Of a stretch of DNA of 64,000 nucleotides, positions 16,629 to 57,404 are shown piece by piece. Location: assembly GCF_017811155.1 (NCBI RefSeq), contig NZ_JACVCV010000002.1:62001-126000 (forward strand), given 5' to 3'. Under the pieces are notes generated by a model. It did no database searches. It was not told where the DNA came from and saw nothing but the letters and a program-made list of their open reading frames with translations. The DNA comes from Lunatimonas salinarum (GTDB taxonomy: Bacteria > Bacteroidota > Bacteroidia > Cytophagales > Cyclobacteriaceae). Every line of letters starts with the position of its first letter. Positions within the stretch are counted from its first letter, which is position 1. The position numbers and the translations under genes were made by a program.

Positions 16629-16829
16629 CTATTCGTAACGATTACCTCGGCGGATAGCCAAAGCCGATGCGCCACCTACCAAAATCCCCAAGGCAGTAGC
16701 AGCTACCGAAATAACGAGCAAGCGGTCACGCTCCCATTCGAAGCCATTGTTTGCAACATGCGCTATGGAGTTGCCGAACAAGGCACCCAATAACACCAAT
16801 AGGATGAATACCAGTTGACGATTGTTCAT
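16629..16829 (-). CDS. small two-helix membrane protein
   Basis: 66 residues from the ATG at 16829, preceded by GGAAAAAACG; an in-frame ATG at 16841 is the alternative start. Two hydrophobic helices (about 5-19 and 37-57) are separated by a short loop NNGFEWERD, and the C-terminus is basic (RRGNRYE). No family recognised. Probably inner-membrane. Located between convergent photolyase and a hairpin-rich gap. Confidence 0.5.
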   Translation of the reverse strand: MNNRQLVFILLVLLGALFGNSIAHVANNGFEWERDRLLVISVAATALGILVGGASALAIRRGNRYE

Positions 16830-16938
16830 CGTTTTTTCCATTTTATGAAGGAAAGAGCGAGGCCGAAAGCTATAAAATTTGACCCCCACCCGTACTTCGA
16901 TCCGTATCGGATTTCCAGTACTCTAAACTTACAATAAC

Positions 16939-16982
16939 GAGGGTGAAAAAAAATTTCAGTAGGCTAATTTTTTTTCACCCTC
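16939..16982. terminator. bidirectional A/T-flanked hairpin
   Basis: Perfect 17-bp arms (GAGGGTGAAAAAAAATT / AATTTTTTTTCACCCTC) with a 10-nt loop. The T-run lies inside the arm. It stands 158 bases past the sulfatase stop and upstream of the small membrane protein. Confidence 0.55.
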
Positions 16983-46753: not shown

Positions 46754-47362
46754 CTAAAGCAACCTTCTGAGTTCTTTGATCGCTTTGTACATCAAATTCC
46801 GAACGCTTTGTTCGCTTTCCATACCCATGATTTCCCGGACCTGTCGGTAGGTAAACCCTTCAAAGAAGGTATAGTAGATAATCTCCCGCTGCCGCTTGCT
46901 TAAATTGGCTATGGCATCATTCAACTGGTTTAGCTTATCAGCAGACAACTGCTTATCAATCAACTGAGATTCGTGGGAAAGGGTAAATAGGAAGTCTCCG
47001 GGTAGGGTATCAATAGATTCCCTGTTGCCCTGCCATTTGGTCAAATCCTTAAACAATTTTCTCTTCAGGGAAGCAAAAAGGTAGAATTTGATTGAATCGG
47101 TGGCTCCTAACCTTGACCTTCTTTCCCTAAGTTCCACAAACAAATCCTGGAGAGCATCTTTGACGATATGGGTATCGGCGATGATACTGTATCCATACCC
47201 AAATAACACCTCAAAATAATTCTCGTAAATGAAAATAAAAGCCGATTCATTCCCGTCTCTGAATGCATTCCAGGCTTCTGAATCCGAAGAAAAGGCCGAA
47301 ATGGAATCGGAATGGGGAGTAACCTCCGATGGGATATTGGTTAAAATCTTCTTTTCAGGCAT
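46754..47362 (-). CDS. ECF RNA polymerase sigma factor (sigma-70 family)
   Basis: 202 residues. Region 2 includes YGYSIIADTHIVKDALQDLF; region 4 has LSKRQREIIYYTFFEGFTYR then QVREIMGMESEQSVRNLMYK, a helix-turn-helix for the -35 element. It is longer at the N-terminus than many members. It is upstream of fecR (79 bases) and with it forms the control module of the susCD pair. It probably drives transcription of susCD and perhaps its own operon. Confidence 0.94.
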   Translation of the reverse strand: MPEKKILTNIPSEVTPHSDSISAFSSDSEAWNAFRDGNESAFIFIYENYFEVLFGYGYSIIADTHIVKDALQDLFVELRERRSRLGATDSIKFYLFASLKRKLFKDLTKWQGNRESIDTLPGDFLFTLSHESQLIDKQLSADKLNQLNDAIANLSKRQREIIYYTFFEGFTYRQVREIMGMESEQSVRNLMYKAIKELRRLL

Positions 47363-47554
47363 TTTGGGTCAGGAAGAAATCCAAGTATATAAAATCACTG
47401 CTTTGATTTAAAATGCCCAAAAATCCAGGCATTCCAAAATCCAAACCGGGTTTTGAAAGGTAAAGCGGAATAATGAAAAAACGTAACCTATCTTTTGGAA
47501 AAAAAAATCAACCAAAAAATTAACACCTTGAAAATCAGCTATATTAAAACAAAA

Positions 47555-48487
47555 TTACTCGTCAAATCTCAACCGAAGGACATGCTCGGAAGCATTCCTC
47601 GCCATAAAAACGCCCAACCCATTCTCCACATTGGTATGCACCAATACCGGCTGGGACAGAAAATCTCCCCGATTGTCGTATTGTAGGTCTGCCGTATCAT
47701 AATACCTAAAATAGGACTCGGTCACGTGAGCAAGGTTTAGGGTTACTTCCAGTAGTTCATAGTCAGTAGGGACCGAAATCCGAAAGACAAGTTCCGATTC
47801 TTCCCCTCCCAACAGGCCATCATCAAACAGCAGCACACTGCGTAATAAATGTTCCTTTTCAAAAGCGGGGTTAGTAGGCCGTGGGTATAAATCCGAACTG
47901 TATTGACGAATAAACGGCTGCCCTTGGGATTCGGTCGTCTCGCTTCCAAAAATCCGCCCGGACAACTCGTAAAAATTGCGGCCTGAAGGATCTGTAAAAC
48001 GAACACGAATCTCAACCAACTCGGAAGTATCCCAAGAACCATCCGGACCCAAACGTACCGTTTCCACGGATTGGATAGGCACAGTGGTAGGGACTACTTG
48101 AAAGGTACGAATGCGTTCAAAGCCGGGGGCCTCCGCCACGAGGTGATAGGATTGATTGGGTTGAAAGACGAATTCAGGTAGCTGATAAAAGGCATTGGGA
48201 TCGTAGGGCCTGCTTCTATCCACATATTCCAACCGGTGCCTATCTCCCGACTCGGTTTCCAAATAAACCGCTGCATCCGAAATCAAGTCGAAAAACTCCT
48301 CATATTCACGATCCTCCAAGATACCCCTCGAACTAGTCAGGAATACCTTCAAGGTATCTGAGGGATCTAACAGGGCATTCAATACCATTCTAGGCTCCTG
48401 CCCGGGCAAGTCCACCTCCAAAAACTGCTCACAAGAAACAAAAATCAAAAATCCGACCGGTATAATATACTTAGATAGGTAACGCAT
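47555..48487 (-). CDS. DUF4249 family lipoprotein
   Basis: 310 residues with lipobox FVSC (Cys19). The start EQFLEVDLPGQEPRMVLNAL and SDTLKVFLTSSRGIL are typical of DUF4249 proteins. These are surface lipoproteins nearly always next to a CarboxypepD-type TonB receptor, as here, where the receptor ends two bases before this gene. By analogy with SusD they may be the receptor's lid or ligand-binding subunit; function is not proven. Confidence 0.9.
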   Translation of the reverse strand: MRYLSKYIIPVGFLIFVSCEQFLEVDLPGQEPRMVLNALLDPSDTLKVFLTSSRGILEDREYEEFFDLISDAAVYLETESGDRHRLEYVDRSRPYDPNAFYQLPEFVFQPNQSYHLVAEAPGFERIRTFQVVPTTVPIQSVETVRLGPDGSWDTSELVEIRVRFTDPSGRNFYELSGRIFGSETTESQGQPFIRQYSSDLYPRPTNPAFEKEHLLRSVLLFDDGLLGGEESELVFRISVPTDYELLEVTLNLAHVTESYFRYYDTADLQYDNRGDFLSQPVLVHTNVENGLGVFMARNASEHVLRLRFDE

Positions 48488-48489
48488 GA

Positions 48490-50856
48490 CTAAAAGGTAA
48501 AACGGTAAGAAACAGATGGCACAATGGGAAACAAGCTAAACTGCCGCAATTGGTTTCGCTGTTGGTCATAGTTGAAGCTGATGTCCATAAAGAAAGGGTT
48601 CAGTCGGCTATAGACGTTGTACACCGATACATTCCAGGTGCGTTTTCCCCATCGCTTCGCTTTGTGAAAATTGACTCCCACATCCAGGCGGTGGTAGCTT
48701 CGCATCTGAAAGTTGTTTCGGGATTCAAAATAATCCAAATAAAGCCCACCAAAACGCATAAATTGATTATTGACCACGGAGGTAGCATGTTGATATCGCC
48801 GGGTCGGCACCGTGATGAAGTTGCCTGTGCCAAATACCCAGGTACCGGATAGGTCAATCCGATCACTCAGTTGATGGACGGCAACCACACTGATGTCGTG
48901 TCTCCGATCGTAGCGAAATGGAAACCAGGCGCCGTCGTTGAGATCATCAAAGCGTCTATCGGTCTTGGATAGGGTGTACCCTACCCAACCGGTTGTTTTT
49001 CCAGTCTTCTTCTGCAAAAGTAGTTCCACCCCAGAGCTTCTGCCTTCTCCGGCTGTCACTTTATTTTGCCAATCTTCGGTGGTGTCCAAAAACGATGCTC
49101 CATCCTGGTATTCGATTAACCCATCCATTGTCTTGTGGTAGGCTTCCACACTGAATTCCAGGCCGTACCCCAGATTCTTGAAATACCCCACCGAGACTTG
49201 GCGGCTTTGCTGAGGGGCAATGCGGTCTGTAGAGGGCACCCACAGGTCAGTGGGCAGGCCCAAGCCCGCATTGGTCAGCAGGTGGATGAACTGGGCCATT
49301 TCTACATAGGAAAACTTCAGGGAAGACCCCGGATCCAACAAATACCTCATGGCAAAACGGGGCTGCAGGGAAGTGTAGGTTTTTGTGTCTGCGAGAAAAC
49401 CGGAAGCATGGGCCCCCAAGTTGAATTTCAGACGATCCCCTACCGAAAAATCATCTTCCAAGTAGAAGGAAAACTCCTGGCTATCGGTAGGTTTACCTCC
49501 TTCCCGTATTTCAGGCCGTTGGCTTTCCTGAGATACAAAAACCCCGGGAGTAAACCGGTGATTGATCCACATACCCCCCCAGCGAAGGTAATGCTGCGGA
49601 TTGGGAATATAGTCAAAATCTGCCTTCAACGCCAGGTCTCGGATACCTGAAAAATAGTCTGCTGCGTAGAAATCGCGAATGGGCGCCTGCCCTTGATTGC
49701 CGGTAAAATTATCCTCATACTCGGTAAACACCCTGAACCGATAGCGTGTGTAGGTTCCCGTGAAATTGGCAAACAGACGCTGATTAAAGACATGGTTCCA
49801 GCGGGCCGCAGCTATTCGGTTGCCCCAGCCCAGCCCGGCACGTTCCCTACTGGAAAATACTCCCTGCGAATTCTCCCTGTTCGATTGAAACCGGGAATAC
49901 CCCCGATCCTCTCCTCCGTAATAACTCAGGTAAAGGCGGTCCTTTTTGTTGAAGATATGGTTTACCTTTGCATTCATGTCGTAGAAATAGTATCCTACGC
50001 TTTCCCGGCCCCCGCTAGTCCTACGAATAATTGGACTCGCAATCATATCGAGGTAGGTACGTCTGCCGGAGAACAGGAAGGAGGTTTTGTCCTTGGCTAT
50101 AGGCCCCTCCACCGTTACTTTGGAGGCTATCAGCCCAAGGCTTCCTTCTCCCTGAAATTTCTTCATATTCCCCTCCTTCATGGTAATATCGACCACCGAA
50201 GAGAGTCGCCCTCCATAGCGGGAGGGGAAGCCCCCTTTGATCAGTTCCACGTTGTTAATAGCCCCGTCGTTGAAAATGGAGAAAAATCCAAACAGGTGGC
50301 TGGCATTGTAGACCGGTACCCCATCCAATAAAACGAGGTTTTGGTCCGGACTGCCGCCTCTTACGTAAAGCCCGGAAGCACCCTCGGCCCCCGACTGCAC
50401 ACCGGGCAATAATTGAATCACTTTAAAAATATCCACTTCGCCCATCAGGGCCGGAAGGTTTTTGATCTCGCGAAGCGGCACATTCACCGCACCCATCTGC
50501 GTACTCTCTTGGATGGGATCGGCACGGTCACTTTGTACCACCACCTCTCCCAACAGCCCGGAAGGCACCATTTCTACGGTCAAAATCGAATCATTGCTTA
50601 CCGACAAAGAAAGTGGCTCGTAACCTACATAGGTAAACACCAACTCCACCTCCTCGGTAGGCGACGTGTAACTAAAAAATCCATAATTGTTGGTGACCGT
50701 ACCTTTCTGCTGTCGTTTGTCGAAAACATGCACACCAATCAGCGACTCACCAGTCTCTGAGTCCTTAACGGTTCCACTGACAGTGACACGCTGCGCAAAA
50801 CCACGCGAAGAAAAAGTCACCATAAAAACTAAAAATAGTATTACAATTACCCGCAT
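48490..50856 (-). CDS. TonB-dependent receptor with carboxypeptidase-like N-terminal domain
   Basis: 788 residues from the ATG at 50856, which places the signal peptide first (MRVIVILFLVFMVTFSSRGF). The N-terminal beta domain starts VTVSGTVKDSETGESLIGVH; the plug follows (GEVDIFKVIQLLPGVQSGAE, GLYVRGGSPDQNLVLLDGVP); the barrel ends SLFPIVPSVSYRFTF. It has no STN domain, so it is not a signalling receptor. It may take up a ligand bound by DUF4249. It is separated from the peptide-export operon upstream by a terminator-like hairpin. Confidence 0.93.
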   Translation of the reverse strand: MRVIVILFLVFMVTFSSRGFAQRVTVSGTVKDSETGESLIGVHVFDKRQQKGTVTNNYGFFSYTSPTEEVELVFTYVGYEPLSLSVSNDSILTVEMVPSGLLGEVVVQSDRADPIQESTQMGAVNVPLREIKNLPALMGEVDIFKVIQLLPGVQSGAEGASGLYVRGGSPDQNLVLLDGVPVYNASHLFGFFSIFNDGAINNVELIKGGFPSRYGGRLSSVVDITMKEGNMKKFQGEGSLGLIASKVTVEGPIAKDKTSFLFSGRRTYLDMIASPIIRRTSGGRESVGYYFYDMNAKVNHIFNKKDRLYLSYYGGEDRGYSRFQSNRENSQGVFSSRERAGLGWGNRIAAARWNHVFNQRLFANFTGTYTRYRFRVFTEYEDNFTGNQGQAPIRDFYAADYFSGIRDLALKADFDYIPNPQHYLRWGGMWINHRFTPGVFVSQESQRPEIREGGKPTDSQEFSFYLEDDFSVGDRLKFNLGAHASGFLADTKTYTSLQPRFAMRYLLDPGSSLKFSYVEMAQFIHLLTNAGLGLPTDLWVPSTDRIAPQQSRQVSVGYFKNLGYGLEFSVEAYHKTMDGLIEYQDGASFLDTTEDWQNKVTAGEGRSSGVELLLQKKTGKTTGWVGYTLSKTDRRFDDLNDGAWFPFRYDRRHDISVVAVHQLSDRIDLSGTWVFGTGNFITVPTRRYQHATSVVNNQFMRFGGLYLDYFESRNNFQMRSYHRLDVGVNFHKAKRWGKRTWNVSVYNVYSRLNPFFMDISFNYDQQRNQLRQFSLFPIVPSVSYRFTF

Positions 50857-51002
50857 ATTGACCGCTTCTGAAAATCTCCACAAAAGTAATCATAATTTGA
50901 TGTTTACCAAAAATGGCAATTTCTAATGGGATACCGCATTGATAAATGCATGATAACGGTAGATAGATACGCCAAAAATGGGGAAAAAGGATAAACTAGG
51001 TG

Positions 51003-51128: not shown

Positions 51129-51347
51129 TCAATTTACCGTTGCCCTATCTTCAAAGACATAGCTCCGGTCCCGCTCGGAATAGACGATCTTTCTTTCAAA
51201 GCCCAGCTTTACAGAATCCAAAATATTGTACACGGTCCGTTCGGTCACGCCAAACTTCCTCGCCAGGTCCTTGGGGGAACCGGTTTTGCCTTTCTCGATC
51301 AGTTCCAACAATCTCATTGTTCGCTCGTAGTATTTTAATCCTGCCAT
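51129..51347 (-). CDS. small HTH DNA-binding protein at end of export operon
   Basis: 72 residues from the ATG at 51347; the 13 codons before it belong to the overlapping exporter end. A winged-helix HTH_11-like fold is suggested by RLLELIEKGKTGSPKDLARK then FGVTERTVYNILDSVK, with GFERKIVYSERDRSYVF as the wing. It starts 11 bases after the exporter stop. It may regulate the operon. Short regulators of this kind are common in exported-peptide loci of Bacteroidota, as I recall. Confidence 0.7.
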   Translation of the reverse strand: MAGLKYYERTMRLLELIEKGKTGSPKDLARKFGVTERTVYNILDSVKLGFERKIVYSERDRSYVFEDRATVN

Positions 51348-51358
51348 TGTTTTAATGA

Positions 51359-53551
51359 TTAAGCGGTTGCGTGTAAGTAAGTCCATTCCTGATATGCCTT
51401 GGCATACAAATTATCCCCGTCGATCAATGCCGCATGGGAACCCTGGGCAGCCACCCTGCCCTCCTCCAATACCACAATGCGGTCGCACTGCCTAGCTAAC
51501 CCCAACCGATGGGTGACCAGCATCAGTCCAACCTGCTTGCGTTTACAGTAGGTATTCAATAAAGAAATCACTTGCTTCTCCATGCCAAAATCCATGGCAG
51601 AAGTCGACTCGTCCAAAATCAAATAGGGGCTATCTTTATAAAGGGCCCTAGCCAGACAAACAAGTTGTCTCTGACCACCGGAAAGGTGCTTACCCTCCTC
51701 TCCACAAAGCGTAAAGAGGCCCTGACCAATGTCGTTAAGCAGGGTACCAAATCCCGTCTCGGACAAAAATAAGGCAACCTTTTCCAGTTCATTGGGGTCA
51801 TTGGTCAGCGCAATATTGTCCAAAATGGTGGTGTTGAATACTTTTTCGTGCTGTCCGACCACGGCTATCTCTTTTCGCCACTCCTGTACCGAGCTCTCCG
51901 ATAGCCTCGTTTCTCCCATAACCAAACTCCCTTGCTCCGGCTGATAGAAGCCTTGAAGAATATCCACTAGGGTGCTTTTTCCACTGCCTATTTTTCCAAA
52001 CACGCCAATCGAATCTCCAGGATGCAGCGCTAGATCAATTTGGTCCAACAACTTGGATTTACCGGGAAACCTAAACGATACTTTTTCCAAACGCAAGGCC
52101 CCCAAAGGTCTTGTAGGATGCTGCTGATAATGCCCTATCGACAAGTCCTCCACCTCCAACTTGGAAATCTCAAACAACCGGTCAAATGCCACTTTGGCTT
52201 CCTGAAGCTGAAAATTCACCAGAACCAGCCCGGAAATTGCCGGAAGCAGTGAACCTCCCACGGTGACCAAAGCCATCATCTCGCCGAGTTGAAGCTGATC
52301 CTGCAATACCAGCCACACGCCGAAGCCAAAAATCAACGTGATGTACACACCGGCAACTAATTGGGTCGCAAATGAAAAGGAATTGCCCAACAAGGCCAGG
52401 GTATAGCCCTTGGTTTGAAATAAATCAAACACCCGATTGATCCGGTCACCAAAAACCCCCTCCTTGCCATAAGATTTGATGGTAGACATACCTGATAGGG
52501 ATTCGATGTATTGGGATTCATTCATTGAGTGTGCCGCCATCATTTCCCGTTGGGAGCTGACAATGGGTTCGTGGTATTTTTTAGCAACCAAAAAATAAAC
52601 CGCCAAGCCACTCAGCCCGAGTAAGCCCAACTCCCAAGCGTAATAAAACAGGTAGGCAAGTGACACCAGGATTACGAGAAAGTTGATCACCAAGCTGCCT
52701 ATCACTAAGGATACCGCATTTCGTATCCTTCCAGAGTCATTTAAGCGGGCAATCAAATCTCCCGTGCTGCTCCCTCTAAAAAACGAGATGGGAAGCTTTA
52801 TGACGGTTGATAGGAATGATTCCACCAATCTAACATTTAGATCCTTACCCTGTCTGGCCATAAAGATCCCTTGCAGATAGCCAAGAAATGACCGTATCAC
52901 CAGCAGGCCTCCCAAAACGGCCAAACCGATTAAAATCATTGGCACATCCTTTTCCGGCAAAAAATCATCGATCAGCTTCTGAGAGAAAATAGCGGTTGAA
53001 AGACCGGTCACAGCCACCAATAAACCTAAAATCGCAGAAATTACCAATATGGGAATATCTGCCTTGATAAGTGATTGGAACCATTTCCACTGCGACTTAG
53101 CTGCTTCCCGCTTAGCTTCAAACCTGTCGGTAGGCAATAGCTCGAGTAGTGCCTTTGACTGCCAGATACTGTCCAGCTCCTCCGGCAGTAGGTAAATGAC
53201 CCCCCAACCAGGATCGCCTATAACAAACTTGTCCTCCTCAAACCCAAAGCAAACCACAAAATGAAGCCGATTGTCCTTCACCACGTGCAGGATCACGGGG
53301 TGATCTAAGGTTTTCAAATGCTCCAAAGAGCATTCAAAGCCCTTGGCTGCAAACCCTATTTTTTGGGCCGCCTGGCATAGTCCCAGCAGAGAGGTACCAT
53401 TCAGGGTGGTGCCACTGTTTTTCCGAAGTTCATCCTGTGAACATGCTCCACCATACCAGTTGGCGAGGGTACTGAGGCAAGCTAGCCCGCAAGCAAACTC
53501 TCCGAGCTGTTTCACATGGATCCGATCGAGTTTTTCCTTAGACAACTTCAT
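51359..53551 (-). CDS. peptidase C39 domain-containing ABC exporter
   Basis: 730 residues from the ATG at 53551. The N-terminal C39 peptidase has Cys21 (EFACGLACL), His97 (RLHFVVCF) and Asp113 (IGDPGWG); the residue before the catalytic Cys is Ala where Asp is usual. Six transmembrane helices span about 150-430. The ATPase has Walker A GKIGSGKSTLVD, signature LSGGQRQLVCLARAL and Walker B YLILDESTSAMD. Such proteins cut double-glycine-type leaders and export the peptide. The gene overlaps the glycosyltransferase by 14 bases, so peptide glycosylation and export are likely linked. Confidence 0.93.
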   Translation of the reverse strand: MKLSKEKLDRIHVKQLGEFACGLACLSTLANWYGGACSQDELRKNSGTTLNGTSLLGLCQAAQKIGFAAKGFECSLEHLKTLDHPVILHVVKDNRLHFVVCFGFEEDKFVIGDPGWGVIYLLPEELDSIWQSKALLELLPTDRFEAKREAAKSQWKWFQSLIKADIPILVISAILGLLVAVTGLSTAIFSQKLIDDFLPEKDVPMILIGLAVLGGLLVIRSFLGYLQGIFMARQGKDLNVRLVESFLSTVIKLPISFFRGSSTGDLIARLNDSGRIRNAVSLVIGSLVINFLVILVSLAYLFYYAWELGLLGLSGLAVYFLVAKKYHEPIVSSQREMMAAHSMNESQYIESLSGMSTIKSYGKEGVFGDRINRVFDLFQTKGYTLALLGNSFSFATQLVAGVYITLIFGFGVWLVLQDQLQLGEMMALVTVGGSLLPAISGLVLVNFQLQEAKVAFDRLFEISKLEVEDLSIGHYQQHPTRPLGALRLEKVSFRFPGKSKLLDQIDLALHPGDSIGVFGKIGSGKSTLVDILQGFYQPEQGSLVMGETRLSESSVQEWRKEIAVVGQHEKVFNTTILDNIALTNDPNELEKVALFLSETGFGTLLNDIGQGLFTLCGEEGKHLSGGQRQLVCLARALYKDSPYLILDESTSAMDFGMEKQVISLLNTYCKRKQVGLMLVTHRLGLARQCDRIVVLEEGRVAAQGSHAALIDGDNLYAKAYQEWTYLHATA

Positions 53552-54947
53552 AAAAATCACGTTTGGTATAGTTAGGATAAATCAACTTCATTTCTTCCAG
53601 CAGGATACGGAGTCTCTGATGTTCCTGCTCGTTTACCGGTGTCATGCCTGCCTTAAATGAGCGGATGGCGGCTTGATATCTAACCGCATGATCCAACATA
53701 TATCTGATCTTTTGCTCCATCAAACCCAAGGAGTCTTTACGGATATTCCCCATTTGACCCAGCCCTAGGTAAACCAGCCTTGCCGCACAGCCCGGCTGAT
53801 CCCATTTTAGCGATAGTGGAAAAGCCAACATAGGAACTTCAGCAGCAATGCATTCCTTGATTGAATTGATTCCCCCGTGATGAATCATTAAATCCACGTG
53901 GGAAAGCAGTATTCGCTGCGGAACACTTGAAAACACCGAAACATTGGCGGGCGTCTTGCCTAGGCGGTGGATATCTAAAAAACCACCTATACTCAACACG
54001 AAAAAAGCATGCGCTATCCTACCGGCAAGGCTTATCACGTTGTTGAAAAAACGCTCGCAAATACCAAGATCGTTTATCGTCACCGTTCCCAGCGAACAGA
54101 AAACCAGCCTTTTGCCAGAGGACTTGACCAAATCAATCACTTTTATGAGCCGTTGATCCTGAATAGACTGCTCCGAGGGAATATCAGGTAATCGACCAAA
54201 ATAGTATTTGTTTTCCTTGTGTGATGCCGCGGCAAAATCAAAGGATTTGGGATAGGCGGCAATGATAGGCAACTCTTTTACACCAATTCCGAAGCAACGA
54301 TCGGTATCCAAGGTCAATTTGGATAACCGGTACTTTGATCTTATGACATTTACGTGGTTAGTTTCACCTAACAATAATTCCTTCCAAAAACGGCTACACC
54401 ATCTGGAAAACAACACCCTATTCCAAGAAATACGAATCCGCAGTGCGGAGAATGCAGATGTAGCCGGCATTTGAACACTTTGAAAGGGCGGAGTACCCGA
54501 TACTCTATGCGGCAGCGTCATGGTTGATACCAATAGCGTAGGCAGCGAGATACGCTCGTATAAAAAAGCTTTCAGGGCAAAATGATCGTCCAGAAATACC
54601 AATGAGGGAGAAACAGAACGCAAGGCGACGGCGTACTCTAACCTTCGTGCTTTCATCTCTTCTATCAAACGAGGCTTTCTCTTTCCGGATATGCGCTCGA
54701 CCAACACGCTGACCCACCCTGCCTGCTGTATCTCTGACTTCTCCGGCGCTAAAAGAAATGGGTTCACTAGAATTACCCGATATCCCCTACTAGTGACTAC
54801 CGAGGAAAAATCAGGATTGGTCAAAAAAACAATCTCAAACCCTTGCTCCTTCATCCAATCGGCCAAATTTAAGAATGCTTGCACGTGACCCATGGCAGGA
54901 AAAGGATCCATCAATACCACCGAGGAAGCTGATTTTTCCGCATTCAT
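53538..54947 (-). CDS. UGT/MGT-type glycosyltransferase (GT1)
   Basis: 469 residues, GT-B fold. The N-terminal domain starts VVLMDPFPAMGHVQAFLNLA, and the C-terminal donor site is LVFCSLGTVTIND, SVPQRILLSHVDLMIHHGGI, EVPMLAFPLSLKWDQPGCAA. The HHGG and DQPGCAA parts match the NDP-sugar binding motif of GT1 enzymes that decorate small hydrophobic acceptors. No membrane segment. Gene context (redoxin upstream, C39 exporter downstream, overlapping) suggests the acceptor is a peptide or other exported product; the acceptor is not proven. Confidence 0.88.
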   Translation of the reverse strand: MNAEKSASSVVLMDPFPAMGHVQAFLNLADWMKEQGFEIVFLTNPDFSSVVTSRGYRVILVNPFLLAPEKSEIQQAGWVSVLVERISGKRKPRLIEEMKARRLEYAVALRSVSPSLVFLDDHFALKAFLYERISLPTLLVSTMTLPHRVSGTPPFQSVQMPATSAFSALRIRISWNRVLFSRWCSRFWKELLLGETNHVNVIRSKYRLSKLTLDTDRCFGIGVKELPIIAAYPKSFDFAAASHKENKYYFGRLPDIPSEQSIQDQRLIKVIDLVKSSGKRLVFCSLGTVTINDLGICERFFNNVISLAGRIAHAFFVLSIGGFLDIHRLGKTPANVSVFSSVPQRILLSHVDLMIHHGGINSIKECIAAEVPMLAFPLSLKWDQPGCAARLVYLGLGQMGNIRKDSLGLMEQKIRYMLDHAVRYQAAIRSFKAGMTPVNEQEHQRLRILLEEMKLIYPNYTKRDFYEVV

Positions 54948-54948
54948 A

Positions 54949-55473
54949 TCACAGGCTTTTGGGTAAGTTATTCAACAAAGAAGAAACTTTAGCAGGTCCT
55001 TCAAACCTCCAAACCAGGTGCATGTCCTTACTGAAAATCAGGGAAACAGGCACGTTAAAAACTTCTAAGGTCTTGGCTATACTCGCGTCTTCGTCGACCA
55101 AAAAATAGGTAGGAACGTTGGATTCCCAGTCAAACGAGTTCTTAAACGCGTCGATTTCATTTGGGTCTTCGGAGGAAATAAAAAGTAACAAAGCAGGTTC
55201 AAACGCCTCTAAATGCTGATTGATTTGTGCTATCTCATGCTTGCATAGATCACAACTCGAATTGAAATAAATCAAGACAATTGGAACCTGACCCGCAAAC
55301 TTCGATAGGTCCAGCCAGGTTCCATCCACTGTTTTAACCGGCAGATCCATCAGTGAAACGGTAACCGGTTTTGGCGTTTGAAGGCTTTTGTATTTTCCGA
55401 TCATGGCCCAGCCCATGACGCCCAAAAACAAAAAAACGAAAGCTAACAAGGCATTTTTAGTTATCTTTTTCAT
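54949..55473 (-). CDS. membrane-anchored redoxin (TlpA-like thioredoxin fold)
   Basis: 174 residues with an N-terminal anchor (8-26). The thioredoxin-like region has VPIVLIYFNSSCDLCKHEIA with the redox pair CDLC (74-77) and the end FNVPVSLIFSKDMHLVWRFE, with a cis-Pro-like NVPVS. It faces the periplasm and could make or reduce disulfide bonds, perhaps in the exported product. It begins directly after the upstream stop (TAAATG) and is followed by TGATATG of the glycosyltransferase, so the frames are coupled. Confidence 0.85.
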   Translation of the reverse strand: MKKITKNALLAFVFLFLGVMGWAMIGKYKSLQTPKPVTVSLMDLPVKTVDGTWLDLSKFAGQVPIVLIYFNSSCDLCKHEIAQINQHLEAFEPALLLFISSEDPNEIDAFKNSFDWESNVPTYFLVDEDASIAKTLEVFNVPVSLIFSKDMHLVWRFEGPAKVSSLLNNLPKSL

Positions 55474-56112
55474 TTACATCACATTTAGGGTTAAGAACAT
55501 GACCAAGACCACCCAGCATACCATTCCTACTCCATAGGAAGAGAGCACGATTCGGGAACTTTTTAGTAACGGGAGCTCTACCTCTTCCTTTAGGAAGTAA
55601 ATCAGTAGCACCATATAGACCAGCTCAAACGCATTGAGCAATTGTAAGGGATATACAAAAACCTGATGCAACCCCGCAGCATCGAAAAAATTAATGGCTG
55701 ACAGCGGGTAATACTTCATAAAGGCATCGTAAGAGAAATTACCGGAAGAAATCACGAGAATTTTTATCAGAACGGCTATCACGAGTATGCTTTCTGCGTA
55801 TACGGCAACATGAAATAGACGGGAAAGTGGTTGGTTTTCGTGACTGTCCGCAAAAAATAACCCCGCATAAAGTAGAGACGCTACCAAAAATGCCTTCACC
55901 ACATAAATGAACACCGAAAAAAGAAGGCTGAATTTACTCCAATACCTCATTTGATCCAGGCTCTCCAAAAGGACATGCTCCGGAATATCCAAATCACCCT
56001 GTTCCATAAACTGACGGAAGAGTAAACCTTCTATATCGACGAAATAGAAGTTTACGGTGTAAATCACTCCCGCATAGAAGACAATGATTACGAAGCTCTT
56101 CATAAAAAACAT
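55474..56112 (-). CDS. multi-pass membrane protein, first gene of the export operon
   Basis: 212 residues with about five hydrophobic helices (6-24, 58-86, 105-126, 155-175, 185-208). A loop between helices 1 and 2 is acidic (EQGDLDIPEHVLLESLDQ). I do not recognise the family. Similar unknown membrane proteins accompany redoxins in peptide loci of this phylum, as far as I remember. The stop and the redoxin start form TAAATG. It might feed electrons to the redoxin or confer immunity; both are guesses. Confidence 0.65.
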   Translation of the reverse strand: MFFMKSFVIIVFYAGVIYTVNFYFVDIEGLLFRQFMEQGDLDIPEHVLLESLDQMRYWSKFSLLFSVFIYVVKAFLVASLLYAGLFFADSHENQPLSRLFHVAVYAESILVIAVLIKILVISSGNFSYDAFMKYYPLSAINFFDAAGLHQVFVYPLQLLNAFELVYMVLLIYFLKEEVELPLLKSSRIVLSSYGVGMVCWVVLVMFLTLNVM

Positions 56113-56738: not shown

Positions 56739-57404
56739 TTACTTGCTAATCAACTCCTCAAAATCATCCCGTACATAGATCACGTTGCGGCCTAGTTCGA
56801 TCCAGCGCTTTTTCTCCAGTTGCTTGAGCAGTCGGGAAATGACCTCCCGGGAGGTACCGAGTTCGTTGGCAATCTCCTGATGGGTGGTATGGAGCTCGTT
56901 GGCACGCAGCTGCTTCATCTTGGTCACAATATACCGCATCAGGCGCTCGTCCATACGCTTAAATGCCACCGCATCCAAGGCCACCAGCATCTCCTGAAAA
57001 CGGTGCTGATAGGTGCTGGATACGTAATCCTTCCATTGCTTGTATTCATCCATCCACTGCTCGTGCAACTGCACCGGCACGGCCAAAATGGTTGTTTTTT
57101 CCTCCGCTACCGCCCGGATTTCACTCGGACGATTGGCACTGCAGCAGGTAAGCGAAAGGGCGCAGGTCTCTCCGGGTTCCAAGTAGTAAAGAAAGAGCTC
57201 CCTCCCGTCCTCATCCGTTCGCAGTACTTTGATGGCACCATCCAAGACGATTGGCACCATTCGGACGAACTGACCGGGCTCCATGATGGCCTTATCCGCT
57301 TCAAACTGCATTATTTTCCCCTCTTTTGCCAAAACCTCCAGTAACCGGGTATCGGTAATGGCCGGCAAGCGGTCCCGCAGATCTGCTATTTCTATCGTAT
57401 TCAT
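56739..57404 (-). CDS. Crp/Fnr-family transcriptional regulator
   Basis: 221 residues. The N-terminal cyclic-nucleotide-binding-like domain has FEADKAIMEPGQFVRMVPIV and YYLEPGETCALSLTCCS; the C-terminal winged HTH has THQEIANELGTSREVISRLL. Cys residues in ALSLTCCSA are not the Fnr iron-sulfur pattern, so the signal is unknown. It lies six bases after the doxX gene in the same operon and may control it. Confidence 0.92.
   Translation of the reverse strand: MNTIEIADLRDRLPAITDTRLLEVLAKEGKIMQFEADKAIMEPGQFVRMVPIVLDGAIKVLRTDEDGRELFLYYLEPGETCALSLTCCSANRPSEIRAVAEEKTTILAVPVQLHEQWMDEYKQWKDYVSSTYQHRFQEMLVALDAVAFKRMDERLMRYIVTKMKQLRANELHTTHQEIANELGTSREVISRLLKQLEKKRWIELGRNVIYVRDDFEELISK

Follow-up and report, generated by a model that had tools for sequence, protein, structure and literature searches.

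Bacteroidetocins have been proposed as class IIf bacteriocins by Coyne et al. in 2019. They kill Bacteroidales, the legend to Fig. 8c of that paper mentions further genes, their loci encode an unknown protein with five transmembrane helices (5-TM protein), a thiol oxidoreductase and an exporter combining a C39 peptidase with an ATP-binding cassette (ABC) transporter, and the peptides carry a double-glycine (GG) leader of 15–16 aa as well as at least two cysteines (PMC6671954). A similar gene set was found in a stretch of 64,000 nucleotides of Lunatimonas salinarum (family Cyclobacteriaceae; assembly of 5.46 Mb in 166 contigs), referred to as the window, where a five-gene operon at positions 51129–56112 additionally encodes a glycosyltransferase of family GT1 and a small helix-turn-helix (HTH) protein. 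Judging from gene content and motifs, we consider it probable that this operon encodes a unit of the bacteroidetocin type for peptide maturation and export, which would serve several dispersed, class II bacteriocin-like GG peptides in trans. An earlier interpretation from the letters of the window (the sequence-only reading) had likened it to glycocin loci, which are described with a glycosyltransferase, a thioredoxin-like protein and a C39 exporter as well as precursors with seven (ThgA) and eight (OrgA) cysteines (PMC12457901). The bacteroidetocin locus is closer, by the described gene set and not by sequence similarity to bacteroidetocins A/B: a 5-TM protein, a CxxC oxidoreductase and a C39-ABC exporter bearing its catalytic residues are all present, and the candidate peptides of the genus and its relatives have a GG leader of about 15 aa and at least two cysteines. 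Distinct from bacteroidetocins are the added GT1 and HTH genes, the Gly/Ala-rich two-cysteine cores, the dispersal of the genus peptides, the probable immunity genes and the palindrome-linked cassettes.

Class II microcins such as microcin V, with GG leader, Gly-rich core, cysteines and C39-ABC exporter in a Gram-negative host, resemble the system as well, but the operon contains no open reading frame (ORF) for a membrane fusion protein (its presence elsewhere in the genome was not sought) and does contain a redoxin and GT1. Likewise, the blp-type bacteriocin regulons of Streptococcus pneumoniae share the layout of one exporter, several peptides, immunity genes and a common operator, whereas here the loci are dispersed over the chromosome of a member of the Bacteroidota and a small HTH protein takes the place of a response regulator. 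Predicted clusters for ribosomally synthesised and post-translationally modified peptides (RiPPs) with glycosyltransferases have already been reported from Bacteroidales; compared by description only, these are built around radical-SAM and LanC enzymes (PMC10352776). In the open-access literature, judged mostly by title and opening of the abstract, we found no account of GT1 in bacteroidetocin-type loci, of a trans layout or of palindrome-linked cassettes, and within the same scope no paper describing glycosylated bacteriocins of Bacteroidota. Machinery and kind of peptide are known already, and within that scope these three features appear to be new.

Operon and export machinery

ORFs and profiles agree with the five overlapping or abutting genes that the sequence-only reading had described:

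55474..56112, minus strand: 5-TM membrane protein, 212 aa; no Pfam or NCBIfam match, relatives in 46 of 49 exporter loci
54949..55473, minus strand: membrane-anchored AhpC/TSA-type redoxin with CxxC, 174 aa; PF00578 (AhpC-TSA), E = 3.9e-10
53538..54947, minus strand: GT1 (GT-B) glycosyltransferase with macrolide/YojK-like fold, putative peptide glycosyltransferase, 469 aa; PF00201 and fold
51359..53560, minus strand: C39 peptidase-ABC exporter (peptidase-containing ABC transporter, PCAT), 733 aa; PF03412, PF00664 and PF00005; likely start 53551
51129..51386, minus strand: small HTH protein, 85 aa, proposed cassette regulator; PF08279 below cut-off, likely start 51347

The operon is confirmed as real and is not a chance arrangement, because its order is kept in the two congeners, catalytic residues are kept and its core recurs over 49 loci. 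In the following, G000 denotes the genome of the window, G001 and G002 the congeners, Gnnn other genomes and Lnnn loci. All three genus genomes show the identical order of TM protein, redoxin, GT1, C39-ABC exporter and HTH protein. Identities to G000 amount to 89 % (G002) and 62 % (G001) for the exporter, 68 % and 42 % for GT1, and 59 % and 33 % for the redoxin. Pfam assignments of the exporter are clear (Peptidase_C39 1.1e-28, ABC_membrane 4.5e-41, ABC_tran 9e-27). For GT1, UDPGT (PF00201, 8e-05) passes the cut-off, EryCIII-like_C (2.2e-06) fails it and the NCBIfam match to TIGR01426 lies below it; HTH_11 (PF08279, 7.5e-05) fails the cut-off for the HTH protein. For the exporter, ATG 53551 is the probable start, which would leave an overlap of 14 bp with GT1, as in L053. 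ATG 51347 is the likely start of the HTH protein, since the motif M[AGS]G[LM]KYYERT is kept in 17 of 18 strong HTH relatives (that of the window included) and 10 of the 18 begin there; with this start the overlap with the exporter disappears.

Searches with exporter, GT1, peptide profile and palindrome covered 295 Cyclobacteriaceae genomes each, and the counts represent non-independent samples because all genomes are drawn from one family. At E≤1e-120 the exporter query matched 50 of them in 53 places. Six of these places are located in G000, G001, G002, G021 (two) and G032, and 40 of the remaining 47 were taken for annotation, some of them cut by contig ends. Together with the three genus genomes, G032, the two loci of G021 and three further records this resulted in 49 exporter loci annotated by iterative profiles, with L049 omitted (same contig as L053) and with L055 and L171 representing two species of one genus. 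The TM protein occurs in 46 of these loci, the redoxin in 41, a strong HTH protein in 16 and GT1 in 9, where one GT1 is broken and one is cut. With sequences under a length limit excluded, Q18 and C24 of the exporter are kept in 46 of 47 relatives, H100 and D116 in 47 of 47, and C74, C77 (the CxxC motif) and P142 of the redoxin in 39 of 39 aligned relatives. H21 and D383-Q384 of GT1, which we take to be its catalytic residues, are kept in 7 of 7.

The N-terminus of the redoxin, as read from the sequence, is hydrophobic. An AlphaFold2 model of the TM protein (mean predicted local distance difference test, pLDDT, of 94.3) exhibits five long helices, counted by eye, and no PDB fold matched it with E below 1. 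No cysteine is found among its columns conserved to at least 90 %, and a cysteine redox relay by this protein is thus not favoured. Within G000, the HTH gene has a single match; the next best match to the exporter query does not extend over its C39 part, and no second match covering that part was found. G001 and G002 each contain a second operon (L128, L090) with the order HlyD, C39-ABC, HTH and GG peptide, HlyD being assigned by profile, and a palindrome upstream.

Candidate substrate peptides

As a check, the sequence-only reading had suggested looking for a shared small ORF near homologous operons. This gave the following result: a small ORF with strict GG leader lies in 39 of the 49 exporter loci (861 kb), as at bacteroidetocin loci, where the peptide gene lies within the machinery region, and in none of 22 control loci (371 kb). 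From 23 such peptides of the relatives, with zero genus members, we built a profile (A4), whose alignment shows two invariant cysteine columns flanking a Gly/Ala-rich core. At E≤0.01 the profile matches 48 of the family genomes, namely 34 of the 50 with the exporter compared to 14 of the 245 without it. After removal of the 16 genomes that had supplied the profile the ratio is 18/34 versus 14/245 (Fisher 4.7e-11, relatedness ignored).

In the genus itself, profile A4 detects five places in G000 (one with an internal stop), three in G001 and three in G002 (one with a stop). An earlier leader pattern, matching 23 times in G000, 24 times in G001 and 29 times in G002 (control: 11, 8 and 12), had already revealed 10 of these 11 places, the peptides being picked by reading. 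Conserved small ORFs are thus found both near homologous operons and genome-wide, so that the condition under which the sequence-only reading would have been refuted, namely their absence, did not apply. The candidate substrates of the genus, however, are dispersed toxin/immunity-like cassettes. Peptides at L183, L184, L194 and L198 differ from the Gly/Ala-rich type; a GGG[YF]QG-like core is common to L183, L184 and L198.

Two observations weaken the proposed service in trans. In none of the three genus genomes did pattern or profile detect a GG peptide next to the operon, and for this reason the link between peptides and exporter is drawn from the motif, from co-occurrence and from relatives. 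The co-occurrence is also imperfect (relatedness ignored), with 16 of 50 exporter genomes and 14 of 48 peptide genomes unmatched.

The GT1 glycosyltransferase and its possible acceptor

The earlier interpretation had named a GT1 glycosyltransferase in a member of the Bacteroidota, which is borne out by profile and fold, the best PDB folds being YojK, OleD-type, Kcn28 and CalG. Relatives at E≤1e-25 were found in 5 of 395 genomes of the phylum and 22 of 295 of the family, the own genome counted in both. A tree of GT1 enzymes was calculated with 25 rows after dropping L161 (broken), L171 (contig end), L220 (on one contig with L050) and L237 (no GT1 ORF found). Seven machinery-linked enzymes, including that of Rhodohalobacter (L050), form one clade (100/99). 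Four further enzymes form a separate clade (100/99), split from the former with 96/95; their loci (L222, L223, L231 and L233, together with the neighbour L088) contain C39-ABC or C39, VKOR and thioredoxin domains as well as GG-type peptides recognised by eye, the exporter of L223 being cut at the end of the stretch. The nearest outgroup (L221) belongs to a radical-SAM locus that also encodes a C39-like protein, DUF6734 and further glycosyltransferase-like genes, and the remaining 13 enzymes of the tree occur, by eye, in other settings. Since GT1 enzymes are found beside GG-peptide maturation more than once, a peptide is favoured as acceptor. From this recurrent association we consider glycosylation of the peptides by GT1 somewhat better than an even bet. 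The second clade is a candidate for a separate glycosylated-peptide system in other genera.

The strongest alternative leaves the export unit as proposed and differs in the glycosylation step only, so that the odds of both readings overlap: GT1 would glycosylate a lipid, a small molecule or part of the cell wall, perhaps to protect the producer itself, and be merely co-transcribed. We regard this as a serious possibility, though one that falls short of even chances. Several findings on GT1 weigh on its side or against a peptide acceptor. The nearest structures are mostly small-molecule enzymes, among them macrolide glycosyltransferases; GT1 is accessory, being absent from 40 of the 49 exporter loci; it is broken in G211; and in G032 it sits 3.2 kb beyond the HTH gene. 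Moreover, cores from GT1-bearing and GT1-lacking genomes (13 versus 17) are alike in Ser, Thr, Asn, Cys, length and Gly/Ala content (all p above 0.2), and no acceptor site stands out in them. Left out of this comparison were G002_C7 (near-identical to G000_C100a), the peptides from genomes G211 and G124, and the second G266 place. Against another target speak the two separate GT1 clades and the L221 locus, all at peptide-maturation loci, and the overlap of GT1 and exporter reading frames by 4–23 bp in 5 of 8 loci. The exported glycopeptide system suggested from the letters of the window stands as an operon for GG-peptide maturation and export, with repeated gene association as the support for the glycosylation; on the whole the earlier interpretation is partly supported.

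Cassettes, palindrome and proposed mechanism

A hydrophobic ORF follows within 400 nt after 11 of 12 peptides checked, seven of these ORFs encoding 54–64 aa, by a rule run without control. The exception is G266, where an ORF overlapping the end of the peptide gene fell outside the distance rule. The two genus peptides with internal stop were left out here as well as in the co-occurrence and core-composition analyses. A two-cysteine, Gly-rich GG-leader peptide with an adjacent small membrane gene is the usual look of a class II bacteriocin and its immunity protein, and we read these ORFs as putative immunity genes.

Alternatively, the exported peptides could be signals or other secreted peptides, with the small membrane proteins as receptors or unrelated. 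Some palindromes (see below) precede small membrane genes without a peptide, in agreement with this explanation; the bacteriocin-like look of the cassettes and the killing of Bacteroidales by bacteroidetocins with like machinery (PMC6671954) argue against it and make it rather unlikely.

The palindrome ACTGAAA-N5-TTTCAGT precedes eight of nine intact genus peptides checked (seven exact, one with two mismatches) and ends 45–62 nt before the ATG. Exact sites number 16 in G000, 20 in G001 and 18 in G002, compared to 0–2 in each of the 292 other family genomes. Under a rule that tolerates a few letter variants, a small hydrophobic ORF, oriented away from the palindrome, lies 15–250 nt off at 25 of 45 distinct sites, in comparison to 11 of 172 control points (Fisher 1.5e-12). 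As 13 of the 45 sites stem from loci fetched by their peptides, the palindrome-fetched loci were also considered alone (18 of 32 sites). Some sites scored as missed precede peptides that the hydrophobicity rule passed over.

At strong-HTH loci of other genera the position is kept, 71–78 nt upstream of the peptide start, while the letters differ (TGACA-N5-TGTCA, TGCAA-N5-TTGCA). With a stricter leader rule and strong HTH proteins only (47 peptides), a palindrome core 40–120 nt upstream was found for 15 of the 18 peptides at strong-HTH loci versus 3 of 29 others (Fisher 6.7e-07; shuffle rate 0.6 %). A looser set of 54 small ORFs, some of them non-peptides, gave 15 of 31 with any HTH versus 1 of 23 without. 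The recognition helix tends to track the half-site, VYRIL being paired with TGACA at three loci, each from a different genus. From this association and the helix comparison, the HTH protein of the operon likely reads the palindrome.

Several points limit this assignment. G000_C100a is a genus peptide without palindrome, and by the rule used a small hydrophobic ORF is missing at 20 of the 45 palindromes. Strong-HTH loci also have the closest exporters, hence the association of HTH and palindrome is confounded by kinship. L163 combines two HTH proteins of one helix type with two palindrome types, and for the operon itself no own palindrome was found.

As a further, rather unlikely alternative, the palindrome could be a dispersed repeat of the repetitive extragenic palindromic (REP) kind or a terminator instead of an operator. 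It occurs in many copies in one genus only and can form a hairpin, and the 20 sites mentioned would fit as well. The near-fixed place at strong-HTH loci, where letters diverged and symmetry was kept, the tie to the presence of an HTH gene and the enrichment before small membrane or peptide ORFs point towards an operator.

Far from the operon, the window itself probably contains one member of the regulon:

16942..16960, strand not assigned: operator-like palindrome GGTGAAAAAAAATTTCAGT with 2 mismatches to the consensus, identical in letters to that before the G000:C111 peptide
16629..16889, minus strand: small membrane ORF, immunity-like, downstream of this palindrome; an internal ATG gives a 66-aa form

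By number alone, palindromes in the window do not exceed the chance level (3.82 expected versus 3 matches when up to 3 mismatches are allowed). The site is credible because the adjoining ORF is related to other palindrome-side small ORFs, being 37 % identical to that of L126 (E 1.5e-11) and 33 % to that of L294 (E 1.2e-08), each over 49 aa. Small membrane genes were also seen in L298 and L299 (G001, G002), which contain arrays of similar genes with an SFNP.EIGFY motif, recognised by eye, and palindromes between them, and in L296, where a palindrome precedes two membrane genes resembling by eye those of the G032 locus.

Glycocin glycosyltransferases such as SunS belong to GT2. A true glycocin system transferred into Bacteroidota is very improbable: the operon shares with sublancin, glycocin F and thermoglycocin the functions glycosyltransferase, thioredoxin-like thiol oxidoreductase and C39 PCAT, but its enzyme is set apart from the SunS/GccA type by profile and fold as a UDPGT/macrolide-type GT1, all 13 of the 13 cores examined from GT1-bearing genomes have two cysteines, unlike the seven and eight of ThgA and OrgA, with no multi-cysteine precursor found, and a 5-TM protein and a Gram-negative host are added. 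Membership in the glycocins was rejected on account of enzyme type and precursor cysteines.

In the surroundings of the operon, a CRP-family regulator (56739–57404) lies directly upstream, with counterparts in the same place in G002 (96 % identical) and G001 (93 %); as a candidate reader of the palindrome it was weighed and set aside. Downstream (46754–50883) follow a Sigma-70-type factor, a DUF4249 protein and a TonB-dependent receptor, the latter two similarly placed in both congeners. Rfam and tRNA scans of the 64-kb window gave zero matches.

For the bacteroidetocin-type unit we propose the following course. Scattered cassettes would produce precursors in which a leader of 15 aa (M[KR]EL...GG) precedes a Gly/Ala-rich core with a cysteine on either side, most of them followed by a small, immunity-like membrane gene, and the HTH protein would control these cassettes via ACTGAAA-N5-TTTCAGT. 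In the cytosol, GT1 may glycosylate all precursors or a part of them. The C39 domain would then cut off the leader while the ABC exporter carries the core across the inner membrane, and in the periplasm the anchored redoxin may form the Cys-Cys disulfide with assistance of the 5-TM protein. Formation of the precursors as well as leader cleavage and export appear well supported by sequence evidence; HTH control and disulfide formation are supported by association. Only tentatively can these steps be joined into a genome-wide regulon in which the HTH protein reads about 16–20 scattered toxin/immunity sites and a single unit processes two-cysteine peptides by glycosylation through a macrolide-type GT1, cleavage, export and oxidation.

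With the machinery known and with candidates at hand for substrates, immunity genes, operator and regulator, an odd operon becomes a testable system, and the palindrome offers a handle for finding short peptide and immunity genes. If GT1 acts on the peptides, Bacteroidota would glycosylate bacteriocins by a class of enzyme usually tied to small molecules. The regulon, if true, would mean that glycosylated class II bacteriocins exist in Bacteroidota and that a GT1 route to peptide glycosylation was recruited at least two times.

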